In this document: positions 30,891 to 36,420 of the stretch, in pieces
Layout: each line of letters begins with the position of its first letter
Numbering within the stretch: the first letter of the stretch is position 1
Origin: Candidatus Eisenbacteria bacterium
Lineage (GTDB): Bacteria > Eisenbacteria > RBG-16-71-46 > SZUA-252
Assembly: GCA_035712245.1 (NCBI GenBank)
Contig: DASTBC010000060.1
Coordinates: 1-36,420, forward strand
Direction of reading: 5' to 3'
DNA length: 36,420 bases
Made by a program: the position numbers and the translations under genes
Notes under the pieces: model-generated
What the model saw: only the letters and a program-made list of their open reading frames with translations
Told to the model about the DNA's origin: nothing
Database searches by the model: none

Positions 30891-32072
30891 ATGGCACCAC
30901 GGTTCCACGTACCGGCACTTCTTCTCGCTGCGGCGCTCATCTCGGTCGGTTGCGCCTCGACCCGGGATCTGGACCTCGGGACCGAGACCGGGTACTCGGA
31001 CGAAGGCACCCTCTACGACGACCTCGATACGTACGGCGCTTGGGTCGACGTTGCGCCTCTTGGCTGGGTGTGGTGCCCCGAGGTCGCGACCGCCTGGCAG
31101 CCCTACACGGCGGGGTACTGGGTCTCCAGCGACCAGGGCTGGCTCTGGGTTTCCGAGGACCCGTGGGGCTCCGTTCCCTACCACTATGGGCGGTGGGCCT
31201 TCGATGACGGTTACGGCTGGATCTGGGTGCCGGGAGACGTGTGGGCGCCCGCGTGGGTTGCCTGGCGGTACGGAGACGGTTGGGTCGGCTGGGCACCCCT
31301 TCCCCCGGAGGTGCCGTGGTCCGTCCACGTGGGCACCGATCTCTCGCCGGACGATCTCGACCGGCGCATCCGCCGCCGCTACTGGTCGTTCACGAAGGCG
31401 GACGAATTCGGCACGAGGCGTGAGCGGGTCCGTGTGGCGTCATCCGAGAAGGACGAGTCGCTCCTCGAGCGAACCCGGAACATCACGAAGCTCGCCGCGG
31501 GACAGCGTCCGGTGGAGACGGGCCTCCGTCCCGATCTCATTCACGAGCTCCGCGGGAAGCAGATCGAACGGGTTCGGATCGTCGACGCGGCGAAACCGGG
31601 GGCCAAAGGCGTTCGCATACGCGATGGAAACGCGGAGGTCTATCGCCCTCAGGCGCAGGTGAACTCCCTGGTTCGGGACCGCGTGCGATCGGTGCCGTCG
31701 GCCAAGGAGTCGAAGCCGGATGTCCCGGCGAGAACGCGCGCGGAGCGCGAGCCGGCGATGCCTGCCCAGGTGGCGCCGCGCGAGACAACCGAGCCAGTCC
31801 AGGTGTCGCGGCGCGAGGACGTGACGCGCGAGGACCGCGACGAGAGCGTCCGGCAACGCGCCGAGAGAGTCGCGCGGCAGCGCGAGGACGTCGCCCGTCA
31901 GAAGGAAGAGGCCGCGGCGCGGCAGCGGGAGCTGGCCCTTCGGGAGCGCGAGGCGGCGGCGAAGCGGCGCGAGGTGATGTCCCGCGAACGGAAGCAGGAC
32001 ACCGTCGACTCCGAGGATCGGGAGCGCGGCAACTCACCCAAACGGTCCCGAGGACCCAGGGCCGACTCGTAG
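30891..32072 (+). CDS. DUF6600-like W-rich lipoprotein with charged coiled-coil tail
   Basis: A 393-residue predicted lipoprotein (lipobox ISVGC, Cys21). Residues about 45-165 are repeats rich in Trp, Tyr and Gly (YGAWVDVAPLGWVWCPE, YHYGRWAFDDGYGWIWVPG, WVAWRYGDGWVGWAPLPPE), the pattern of DUF6600 proteins often found near FecR-like proteins. The second half changes to a long Arg, Glu and Ala-rich region (about 290-393) likely to form a coiled coil. Function is unknown; surface exposure is inference. An AAGGAG ribosome site precedes the ATG, and a longer upstream frame lacks support. Confidence 0.85.
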   Translation: MAPRFHVPALLLAAALISVGCASTRDLDLGTETGYSDEGTLYDDLDTYGAWVDVAPLGWVWCPEVATAWQPYTAGYWVSSDQGWLWVSEDPWGSVPYHYGRWAFDDGYGWIWVPGDVWAPAWVAWRYGDGWVGWAPLPPEVPWSVHVGTDLSPDDLDRRIRRRYWSFTKADEFGTRRERVRVASSEKDESLLERTRNITKLAAGQRPVETGLRPDLIHELRGKQIERVRIVDAAKPGAKGVRIRDGNAEVYRPQAQVNSLVRDRVRSVPSAKESKPDVPARTRAEREPAMPAQVAPRETTEPVQVSRREDVTREDRDESVRQRAERVARQREDVARQKEEAAARQRELALREREAAAKRREVMSRERKQDTVDSEDRERGNSPKRSRGPRADS

Positions 32073-33184: not shown

Positions 33185-33592
33185 ATGAACCGCTACGCCA
33201 CGCATCTGCTCCTGGACATCGTGCGAAAGGTCCTGAGCCTTCTCCTACCGCTTGCGACGATACTCCTTGCGGCGCCTGCCATGGGGGTCCTGATCTTCGG
33301 CATGTTTGGAGGGGTGAACGGCTTCATCCTGCTCGTGAATGTCGGCGTCGTGCTCGGACTGCTGGCGGCACCCGGTTACCTGTTCGCCGTGTTCCGAACG
33401 CACGGCCTCGCACGAGTCCCACCGGGTCAGCGTGTGTGGATCGCGCGGAGCCTGATCGCGGCCTCCCTGGCCTGCGTCATCGCGCTTCCGTTCACGGCCG
33501 TGGCGTGGCAGCTGGCCTTGCTGCCGCTCGCGACACTGGGCCTCTGCCTCGAGCGCCTCCACCACTGCAGGGCGGTCTGGCGGAGGGGGTAG
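33185..33592 (+). CDS. Small integral membrane protein, unknown function
   Basis: A 135-residue protein with four hydrophobic segments (VLSLLLPLATILLAAPAMGVL, GFILLVNVGVVLGLLAAPGYLF, SLIAASLACVIALPFTAV, and a last one near ALLPLATLGLCL). I do not recognise a family. GAGGGCAGG precedes the ATG. Its last five codons overlap the 3' end of tRNA-Ser(TGA), which is encoded on the other strand. The gap to the divergent lipoprotein gene is only 47 bp. Confidence 0.65.
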   Translation: MNRYATHLLLDIVRKVLSLLLPLATILLAAPAMGVLIFGMFGGVNGFILLVNVGVVLGLLAAPGYLFAVFRTHGLARVPPGQRVWIARSLIAASLACVIALPFTAVAWQLALLPLATLGLCLERLHHCRAVWRRG

Positions 33593-33665
33593 GATTCGAA
33601 CCCACGGTGCCTTGCGGCACAGCGGTTTTCAAGACCGCCGCCTTAAACCACTCGGCCACCCCTCC
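33578..33665 (-). tRNA. tRNA-Ser (anticodon TGA), CCA encoded
   Basis: A class II tRNA with acceptor GGAGGGG/CCCCTCC, D-arm TGGCCGAGTGGTTTAAGGC, anticodon stem GCGGT/ACCGC around CTTGAAA (anticodon TGA), variable arm GTGCCGCAAGGCAC and T-arm GGGTTCGAATCCT. Discriminator G and CCA are encoded. Its 5' half is repeated at 36256-36302, which suggests it served as an integration site. It overlaps the convergent membrane protein gene. Confidence 0.96.
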
Positions 33666-33738
33666 GCTCCGGGCAGCATTGTAAGCTGCACCTCCTTCCT
33701 GCAGACAACCGGCTTCCAGCGGAATAAACTTCCGCGGC

Positions 33739-36054
33739 ATGGCGCTCTCCCCCAAGACCCGCCTCGGAACCTACGAAATCCTGGGTCACCTCGGCTCGGG
33801 CGGGATGGGCGAGGTCTATCGAGCCCGGGACCTCCGCCTGGGCCGCGACGTGGCGGTCAAGGTGTTGCCCGCGGGCGTTGCCTCCTCCCCCGACCAACTC
33901 GCCCGGCTCGAGCGCGAGGCGAGGACGGTGGCGGGGCTCAATCATCCCAATATCGTCACGCTTCATTCGGTCGAGGATGAGGACGGCATTCGATTCCTCA
34001 CGATGGAGCTGGTCGAGGGGCAGAGTCTCGCGGATCTGATCCCCTCGGGCGGGCTCCCTTTCAACCGCGTCCTCGAGCTATCGATTCCCCTCGCCGACGC
34101 CTTGGTCGCGGCCCATGAACGCGGCGTGGTCCATCGGGATCTCAAGCCCGGCAACGTGATGGTGAATCGCGACGGCCGGGTCAAGGTCATGGACTTCGGC
34201 CTCGCGAAGATGGCCAGCGTGGAGTCGGCCCTCGGAACCATCGATGCCACGGTCGATTCTCCCGTTTCCGCTCCTGGGCAGGTCGTGGGTACGATTCCCT
34301 ACATGGCGCCGGAGCAGATTCGAGGCGAGGCGGTTGACGCACGAGCCGATCTCTTTGCCTTGGGAATCATCCTCTTCGAGCTGACGACCGGCCGCCGCCC
34401 GTTCGCAGGCGCGAGCCCCGCGGACGTGAGCTCATCGATTCTCCGCGACACGCCGGAGCCGCTCACGCGAGCGCGCAAGGATCTGCCCAAGGATCTCGAG
34501 CGCCTCGTGAGCCGTTGCCTGGAGAAGAACCCTAGAGATCGGGCGCAGACGGCGCTCGACATCTCGAACGAGCTTCGGCGGATGAGGCGCGAGCTGGAGC
34601 GGGCGGCGTTGGAGAAGGAGCCTTCGGACAAGGTCGCCTCGATCGCCGTGCTTCCCTTCGTGAATCGAAGCGCGAGCGTGGACGACGAATACTTCTCCGA
34701 TGGCCTCGCCGATGAGCTGCTCAACGTATTGGCGAAGATCAGGGGACTCCGGGTGGCGGCGCGGACGTCGGCGTTCCACTTCAAGGGAAAGGACACGACC
34801 ATCGCCGAGATCGGCAGCGCGCTCCATGTCGCCACCGTGCTCGAAGGAAGTGTCCGGAAGGCCGGGAATCGCGTGCGGATCTCGGTGCAGCTCGTGAAGG
34901 TCTCCGACGGCTATCACCTCTGGTCCGAGACGTACGACCGGACGCTCGAAGACATTTTCGCGGTCCAAGATGACATTGCTCAGTCCGTGGTGAAGGAGAT
35001 GAGGACGGTGCTCCTGGGTGAACAGGCGGACTCGGACGCGAGCGGCCAAGCGAAGGCGGAGGTTGCCAGGGCGGCGAAAGGGCGGGCCACGCATCCCGAG
35101 GCGCACCGTCTTTACCTCATGGCCCGCCACCATATCAATCAATCCAGTCCGGAAGAGACCGCCATCGGGATCGATCACCTGATGAAGGCGCTGGAGCTGG
35201 ACCCGGAGTTCACGCTCGCGTTCGTCGAGGTCAGTCGAGCTCGGATGAACCAAGCCGCTTTTAACTGGGTCCCTTTGGTCGAGGGATTCAAGCAAGCGAG
35301 AGAAGCGGCGGAGCGGGCTCTTGCGCTTGAGCCGGAGCTGGCGGAGGGGCACGCCCAAATGGCCTGGATCCAAGTGAGCCATGACCGAGACTGGCGAGGA
35401 GCGGAAGCTTCGGTCGCACGAGCGTTGGAGATTGCGCCAGCGGACCCAAAGGTGCTCCGCGCCGCGGGGATGATGGCGAGAGTCCTGGGGCGTGTAGATG
35501 AGGCCATTCGCTTCTCTCGTCGCGCCTTGGAACAGGACGCGCTGAACTCGGTGGCCTACAGAAACCTCGGGGGCATCCTACATTCGGCGGGCCAGCTTGC
35601 GGAGGCGGAGGCAGCCATGCGAAAGGGCCTTGACCTCTCCCCGCAAGCGACAGGCCCGCGGGGACAACTCGCGCAGATTCTCGCCGCCCAGGGCCGCATT
35701 GAGGAGGCGGCGGCCGAGGCGATGCAGGAACCTGACGAGCTATTTCGACTCTGGTCGCTGGCGATCGTGAGTCACATCGCGGGGCATCGTGCGAAGTCGG
35801 ATGAAGCGCTGCGTGAAATGATCGAGAAGTACGCGGGTGATTCCGCCTATCAGATTGCTGAAGTCTTCGGCGCGCGCGGCGAGGTGGATGCCGCCTTCGA
35901 ATGGCTCGATCGGGCGGCGGTCCAGGGCGACCCCGGCATCATGCATCTTAGGGCGTCCGTGCCCCTTCGCTCGCTCCACCGCGATTCGAGGTGGGGTGCG
36001 TATTTGAAGAAGGTGGGGTTGGAGGAGCGCGCGACCCCGTCGCGCGGCGGCTAG
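33739..36054 (+). CDS. Serine/threonine protein kinase with TolB/FlgO-like domain and TPR repeats
   Basis: A 771-residue multidomain protein. Residues about 12-275 are a Hanks-type kinase with all key residues: GSGGMG (19-24), VAVK Lys41, HRDLKPGN (Asp134), DFG (Asp152) and YMAPEQIRG. Residues about 305-430 resemble the TolB/FlgO-like domain of adenylate-cyclase and OmpR-type regulators (IAVLPFVNRSAS, FSDGLADELLNVLAK, EGSVRKAGNRVRISVQLV, WSETYDRTLEDIF). From about 465 onward at least five TPR units follow (for example AMRKGLDLSP, AEAAMRK). No membrane helix is seen, so it is cytosolic. It carries more A/T third bases than its neighbours (ttt, ttg, caa, aga codons in 35.2-35.5 kb) and lies between two copies of a tRNA half, suggesting transfer. 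Confidence 0.93.
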   Translation: MALSPKTRLGTYEILGHLGSGGMGEVYRARDLRLGRDVAVKVLPAGVASSPDQLARLEREARTVAGLNHPNIVTLHSVEDEDGIRFLTMELVEGQSLADLIPSGGLPFNRVLELSIPLADALVAAHERGVVHRDLKPGNVMVNRDGRVKVMDFGLAKMASVESALGTIDATVDSPVSAPGQVVGTIPYMAPEQIRGEAVDARADLFALGIILFELTTGRRPFAGASPADVSSSILRDTPEPLTRARKDLPKDLERLVSRCLEKNPRDRAQTALDISNELRRMRRELERAALEKEPSDKVASIAVLPFVNRSASVDDEYFSDGLADELLNVLAKIRGLRVAARTSAFHFKGKDTTIAEIGSALHVATVLEGSVRKAGNRVRISVQLVKVSDGYHLWSETYDRTLEDIFAVQDDIAQSVVKEMRTVLLGEQADSDASGQAKAEVARAAKGRATHPEAHRLYLMARHHINQSSPEETAIGIDHLMKALELDPEFTLAFVEVSRARMNQAAFNWVPLVEGFKQAREAAERALALEPELAEGHAQMAWIQVSHDRDWRGAEASVARALEIAPADPKVLRAAGMMARVLGRVDEAIRFSRRALEQDALNSVAYRNLGGILHSAGQLAEAEAAMRKGLDLSPQATGPRGQLAQILAAQGRIEEAAAEAMQEPDELFRLWSLAIVSHIAGHRAKSDEALREMIEKYAGDSAYQIAEVFGARGEVDAAFEWLDRAAVQGDPGIMHLRASVPLRSLHRDSRWGAYLKKVGLEERATPSRGG

Positions 36055-36255
36055 GCCCGGTCGAGCCTGTCCCTGTCCTGAGGAGCGTCGTTTCCGCGGT
36101 GATCTCTGGATCAACGCTCCCTGTGACCGGATTGTGACCACTTGAGCGCCCTCTCATGTCCCCTTCTGATCAAAGAGAAGCGCCCCGGAAGCTGACTGCC
36201 CCCAAGGCGCTGAATGACTCGCGGACGTAAACCAGGTTCGGGGCGAATGACGTGT
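36055..36255. other. Gene-free stretch after the kinase
   Basis: No credible gene is seen. A 7-bp inverted repeat (36082-36088 with 36114-36120) lies shortly after the kinase stop and might stabilise its transcript end. Two copies of TGTGACC lie 11 bp apart (36122-36128, 36133-36139), the spacing of one helical turn. Confidence 0.5.
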
Positions 36256-36300
36256 AGCGGTTTTCAAGACCGCCGCGTTAAACCACTCGGCCACCCCTCC
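36256..36300 (-). pseudogene. tRNA-Ser(TGA) 5'-half fragment, candidate attachment site
   Basis: This matches the 5' half of the intact tRNA-Ser(TGA) from acceptor to the end of the anticodon stem. The repeat as a whole (36256-36302 against 33621-33667) is 47 nt with one mismatch (36277 g, 33642 c). The mismatch breaks a D-stem pair. The variable arm, T-arm and 3' acceptor strand are absent, so it cannot make a tRNA. Both copies point the same way and flank the kinase gene, as expected for the ends of an integrated element or a tandem duplication remnant. Confidence 0.88.
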
Positions 36301-36302
36301 GC

Positions 36303-36420
36303 GCTTACGTGACCGTATCTCAGCGGAACTCGGCTGAAGCATCAGGGACCTTGAGTAGCTTATGTGTAGCTTATCGTCTCGGAGAATCCATGTGCCTTGG
36401 ATCCCTGCTATGATTGGCCC
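36303..36420. other. Gene-free stretch at the right edge
   Basis: No gene start, RNA or terminator is supported. GTAGCTTAT occurs twice, 11 bp apart (36355-36363, 36366-36374). The stretch is visibly richer in A and T than most of the window. Confidence 0.4.

Follow-up and report, generated by a model that had tools for sequence, protein, structure and literature searches.

A displaced 5' half of tRNA-Ser(TGA) in an Eisenbacteria genome as the probable scar of an element integrated on the 5' side of the tRNA gene

Introduction

Small islands without an integrase, such as those related to tycheposons, carry small cargo at tRNA genes, as does the segment described here. Integrative elements of 5' orientation were reportedly described by Zhao and Williams in 2002 (cited in PMC6563490). 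Islander-type islands combine a tyrosine integrase with a tRNA gene (tDNA) and a displaced fragment of that gene, and a 5' fragment is found in 159 of 3919 of them (4.1%) (PMC4383910). Integration on the 5' side is documented but uncommon (PMC6563490, PMC8371274). Archaeal pTN3-like elements recombine with the 5' part of a tRNA gene and lie on its 5' side (PMC8371274), and the thaumarchaeal CalSub-E1 is a 5'-oriented integrative element in tRNA-Ser (PMC6563490).

The window analysed here, that is the whole stretch of 36,420 nt of contig DASTBC010000060.1 from a Candidatus Eisenbacteria genome (GCA_035712245.1), contains a segment that resembles Islander-type islands in being bracketed by an intact tRNA gene and a direct fragment of it, with a crossover that we place at the anticodon loop and a target gene apparently rebuilt by the element. 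Unlike in most Islander islands, the fragment is the 5' half; moreover, the segment has no integrase, for which the Islander filter would reject it, and its length is near Islander's 2-kb limit. Like the pTN3-like elements and CalSub-E1, it would have recombined with the 5' portion of its tRNA gene, and it lies on the 5' side of that gene. In contrast to these archaeal elements, it belongs to an uncultivated bacterial class in which the fragments found often have this orientation, and it is probably a remnant. A literature search found no paper joining Eisenbacteria with an integrase and a tRNA.

Results and discussion

The half copy is bounded by landmarks of the tRNA

The features of the locus are collected in Table 1. 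Positions 36256-36302 are a direct copy of 33621-33667 in the same orientation with 46 of 47 nt identical, the sole mismatch being a C at 33642 that is a G at 36277. The copy spans tRNA positions 1-45, i.e. through the anticodon stem, and 2 nt of the 5' flank. Hence, an intact tRNA gene is accompanied by a same-orientation fragment of the same tRNA, as in an island, and this 5' fragment lies upstream of the minus-strand gene, at a distance of 2.6 kb. The boundaries of the copy are the 5' end of the tRNA and the end of the anticodon stem, which speaks for an attR scar; the latter boundary lies 6 nt beyond the end of the anticodon loop and fits a crossover at this loop. Searching the genome with the half tRNA returned the intact gene, the half copy and one tRNA-Ser(CGA) gene only, and thus the half copy is not a dispersed repeat. 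A preliminary description of this DNA had reported the 47-nt repeat with its one mismatch, which we confirm, and had named a genome-wide dispersed repeat as the finding that would speak against an island; this is not what we found.

Table 1. Features of the tRNA-Ser(TGA) locus (positions of the window)
Feature	Position	Strand	Remarks
Intact tRNA-Ser(TGA)	33578..33665	-	Anticodon loop 33627-33633; called by ARAGORN; family members have 97-99% identical genes
5' flank of intact tRNA	33666..33738		Promoter-like TACAAT on the minus strand; expected place of the element's left arm
Ser/Thr protein kinase with C-terminal TPRs, 771 aa	33739..36054	+	Pfam PF00069, 169.6 bits, and TPR families; large paralog family
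TGTGACC direct-repeat pair	36122..36139		Starts at 36122 and 36133, 11 bp start to start; candidate integrase arm-type (P') sites
Element side of junction	36218..36255		Conserved in G001:C11 (84% across 62 bp); the similarity extends into the tRNA core
Displaced 5' half of tRNA-Ser(TGA)	36256..36302	-	Anticodon-loop core 36262-36268
Outer flank to contig end	36303..36420		Carries an 11-bp-spaced GTAGCTTAT pair

Chance, an assembly artefact or the random duplication of a segment with part of the tRNA gene might be invoked instead, as the end of the contig is near and the exact locus comes from one genome only. We consider such an origin very improbable. No match comparable to the half copy was obtained in 100 shuffled controls, both boundaries of the copy fall on tRNA landmarks, as they do in many further examples from the class, and the copy has a mismatch of its own. 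In addition, its non-tRNA flank is conserved beside the tRNA core in a sister species of the same genus (G001), and judged from these sequence features a chimeric join at the half copy is unlikely. A Group I intron in the anticodon loop was also considered and is ruled out, as the loop is retained in both halves. The outer flank (36303-36420) gave no match in the relatives; the contig ends 118 bp past the half copy, at position 36420, which prevents a comparison of this flank and weakens the case for an attR scar. Elsewhere in the window, ARAGORN calls a tRNA-Pyl and an undetermined tRNA at 1932-2024 and 31610-31692, which are probably false positives.

The kinase gene is probably cargo

The 2.6 kb between the two sites hold a single gene, encoding a Pkinase domain followed by TPRs, in agreement with the one large kinase gene noted previously. 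The less GC-biased codons ascribed to it are weakly borne out: GC3 is 0.79, as compared to 0.80-0.84 in neighbouring genes and 0.80-0.87 in paralogs of the same genome. The family is heavily expanded in this genome (G000), with 106 first-look candidates and ten strong matches. In G001, a kinase of the same family, 60% identical to that of the window, likewise lies directly upstream of tRNA-Ser(TGA). Orthology of the two was considered and is rejected by the tree, which places the window kinase as sister to a paralog of its own genome (support 96/95). It had been proposed to look for the same half tRNA beside kinase-TPR genes elsewhere; neither a tRNA-Ser nor a half copy was present at 79 loci of kinase relatives from the genome collection, indicating that the half is tied to the tRNA and not to kinase genes. 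The kinase itself as the mobile unit was likewise discarded, as no tRNA or half lies near its relatives or paralogs, the window and G001 excepted. The kinase is probably the cargo of the insertion, and the non-orthologous kinase at the same place in G001 could mean that its position has another cause.

One such cause would be that the kinase has long occupied its place upstream of tRNA-Ser(TGA), the half copy stemming from an unrelated insertion or from a rearrangement involving two insertions. The arrangement in G001 would fit, and so would the GC3 of the kinase, which is near that of its paralogs. However, the kinases of the window and G001 are not orthologs, and a kinase is missing from this place in G004, a member of a different genus within the family. 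We therefore regard this explanation as possible, yet doubtful.

Comparison with relatives, which is above strain level, shows tRNA-Ser(TGA) with neither half copy nor kinase in G004 and several other members of the class. An empty version of exactly this site was seen in no genome compared, and this counts against reading the half copy as an attR scar. On a 6.4-kb contig of G001, the element-side flank of the window lies beside a tRNA-Ser core, and a piece of the tRNA 5' end is found 1.3 kb farther; this contig may conceivably adjoin the tRNA-Ser(TGA) contig of G001. Two further leads were abandoned. The element end, GCGGACGTAAACC..TTTCAAGACC, is not a specific mobile signature in that it had no match in genome or viral collections, and its first part gave weak matches in its own genome with no tRNA half adjoining. 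A link across the contig end through a neighbouring ORF of G001 and G006 failed, as the homolog in G000 is on another contig without a half tRNA.

Displaced 5' halves recur across the class

Our sample of the class comprises 47 genomes, the nearest named member being Candidatus Eisenbacteria SZUA-252. In these genomes, 24 displaced 5' halves of tRNAs for Ser, Arg, Lys and Thr were tabulated, 17 of which end between -2 and +1 nt from the last base of the anticodon loop. Likewise, 6 of the 7 tabulated 3' halves start at most 2 nt from the first loop base. Such ends are the product expected of strand exchange across a 7-bp overlap in the anticodon loop. The proportion of 5' to 3' halves is biased by the way the fragments were sought; in searches started from integrases, 5 of 9 halves were 5' halves by a hand tally, versus 4.1% in Islander. 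That usually the 3' half is displaced, as stated in the preliminary description, holds for bacteria at large, whereas the 5' half is the commoner one among the fragments found here. Integration on the 5' side is known but rare, and its frequency in the class is the notable point.

Querying the class with tRNA-Ser(TGA) revealed further 5' halves in G006 and G026 and one 3' half, while the halves in G002 and G036, as read by eye, belong to Ser(GGA) and Ser(CGA), respectively. Queries with tRNA-Arg(CCT) and tRNA-Lys(TTT) yielded many matches ending at the anticodon loop. According to ARAGORN and a tRNA library, most are true fragments; those in G020 and G022 are intact genes and that in G017 is a longer fragment. 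A control class of 60 genomes gave no matches to positions 1-39 of this kind, but its tRNA is too diverged for a fair query.

Both sides of one gene are invaded at tRNA-Arg(CCT) of the present genome (G000:C35:47786-49803, L242), where a 3' half follows the gene by 0.6 kb and a 5' half precedes it by 1.3 kb. Another of its contigs, which has no intact tRNA, carries two tRNA-Lys(TTT) 5' halves that flank a 687-aa ORF and are separated by 2.5 kb (G000:C224:2381-4981, L255).

Integrases accompany the same geometry elsewhere

Complete elements show the order 5' half, cargo, integrase, rebuilt tRNA. At tRNA-Thr(TGT) of G009, the integrase adjoins the rebuilt tRNA and the 5' half lies 35.3 kb off on the same contig; at tRNA-Ser(CGA) of G021, tRNA and 5' half are 76.8 kb apart, again on one contig. 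For tRNA-Arg(CCG) of the present genome, the C-terminus of the integrase is found on contig C91 and the 5' half on another contig, C35. tRNA-Ser(TGA) itself has a 3' half in G026, with an integrase at a distance of 65 bp. This integrase has 25 matches in the class, 7 of which have their C-terminus directed at the 5' end of an intact, same-strand tRNA (8 integrases once that at tRNA-Arg(CCG) is added); among the others, 5 face a tRNA 3' end, 3 a 3' half and 2 a 5' half. A tree of the integrases by orientation lacked the resolution needed to reveal a clade of 5'-side integrases. Accordingly, the type of element suggested earlier for the window, placed 5' of the tRNA and crossing over at the anticodon loop, has counterparts with an integrase at tRNA-Arg(CCG) of the same genome and in relatives. 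In G021, tRNA-Ser(CGA) is represented twice (C3 and C21; L207, L199): intact, with an element of 77 kb on its 5' side, and as a 3' half that has an integrase of its own and lies upstream of tRNA-Ser(GGA). This arrangement suggests two stacked elements.

A tblastn search with 17 integrases, of which relatives supplied 16 and this genome one, gave no match between the two sites of the window, in line with the earlier observation that none is present. Integrase-less intervals of 0.9-7 kb occur elsewhere in the class, including those at tRNA-Lys and tRNA-Arg(CCT) of the present genome. At tRNA-Arg(CCT), G006 has a 2.3-kb interval bounded by 5' halves with no match to the integrases of the class, and in G021 two 5' halves precede the tRNA by 5.2 and 8.2 kb. 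Integrase remnants of 26-45 aa are found close to other tRNA-Arg(CCT) sites.

Candidate arm sites are retained at one end

To find arm-type repeats, 7-bp direct repeats 10-12 bp apart were sought within 200 nt on the element side, and at 10-13 bp in the flank of the intact tRNA. TGTGACC occurs in the window in two copies only, counting either strand, at 36122 and 36133, and the pair is also present in G001 and G036 beside junctions derived from tRNA-Ser. Repeats of this type, for which the search was designed once the first pair had been noticed, were found on the element sides of 16 of 27 junctions, as compared to 12% of pieces taken at random from the window. Not all of these junctions are independent, and their tRNAs were assigned by BLAST to a library. 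Both ends of one element in each of G009 and G021 carry an identical 7-mer with a spacing of 11 or 12 bp. From their spacing and placement we infer that these repeats are integrase arm sites. Beside the intact tRNA (33666-33738), there are no 7-bp direct repeats 10-13 bp apart, which counts against an attR scar. In the outer flank, GTAGCTTAT is repeated at 36355-36363 and 36366-36374, i.e. with an 11-bp spacing; it differs from the TGTGACC pair and may be the left arm of an adjacent element. With a possible arm site beyond 36302, an integrase past the contig end is conceivable.

We consider it very probable that the half tRNA is the attR scar of a tyrosine-recombinase element that inserted at the anticodon loop, an integrase-less relic being what remains. 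The element would have entered the 7-bp anticodon loop of tRNA-Ser(TGA) from the 5' side of the tRNA. By analogy with the complete elements of the class, its own tRNA 5' half and promoter would have rebuilt the gene at 33578-33665, displacing the previous 5' half to 36256-36302. The right end of the element, including the candidate arm repeats at 36122-36139, would have been retained, while the integrase and the matching left arm may have been lost or replaced, leaving the 2.6-kb segment with the kinase as its probable cargo. As neither an integrase nor a matching repeat beside the intact tRNA was found, the segment is probably a decayed relic, in keeping with the decayed island considered in the preliminary description. 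Unless a related integrase acts on it in trans, it is probably no longer mobile.

Alternatively, the 2.6-kb segment may never have been autonomous, being a cassette that integrases belonging to other elements captured and mobilised in trans, such segments stacking 5' of tRNA genes. We consider this unlikely. Short intervals bounded by 5' halves and without a match to the class integrases do recur (tRNA-Lys of G000, tRNA-Arg(CCT) of G006 and G021), and along 53-58 bp the element sides at the tRNA-Lys halves of G000 and G001 resemble that of the tRNA-Arg(CCG) element, which bears an integrase. However, decay accounts for the same data, one such interval, in G032, contains an integrase remnant, and a mobile cassette would be expected to have kept its left arm, which the window lacks. 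More speculative still, and in our view rather improbable, is a general scheme of integron-like accretion, in which tRNA genes of the class seed stacks of small, often integrase-less segments. Each would be added 5' at the anticodon loop, would leave a 5' half and promoter, and would be moved in trans by integrases reading shared arm repeats. An integron cassette array was considered in view of the gene-by-gene segments; the sites here are tRNA halves.

With the half copy read as an attR scar, the puzzling half tRNA of the window is explained as an ordinary scar. Beyond this locus, 5' halves are the commoner kind among the fragments found in the class, involve several tRNA species and include repeated insertions at one gene. 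The class thus offers a natural set for asking why orientation is normally fixed, how tRNAs are expressed after promoter replacement at each insertion, and whether integrase-less segments are relics or passengers.

Two minor observations concern tRNA-Ser(TGA) in other genomes. In G026, contigs C102 and C107 (L069, L068) carry both halves of the gene, and the search returned no intact copy, which may be on a missing contig. In G001, a 21-nt exact piece of the tRNA 3' end, possibly a scar of the T-arm type, lies ~320 bp downstream of the intact gene (G001:C17:5096-5116, L063).
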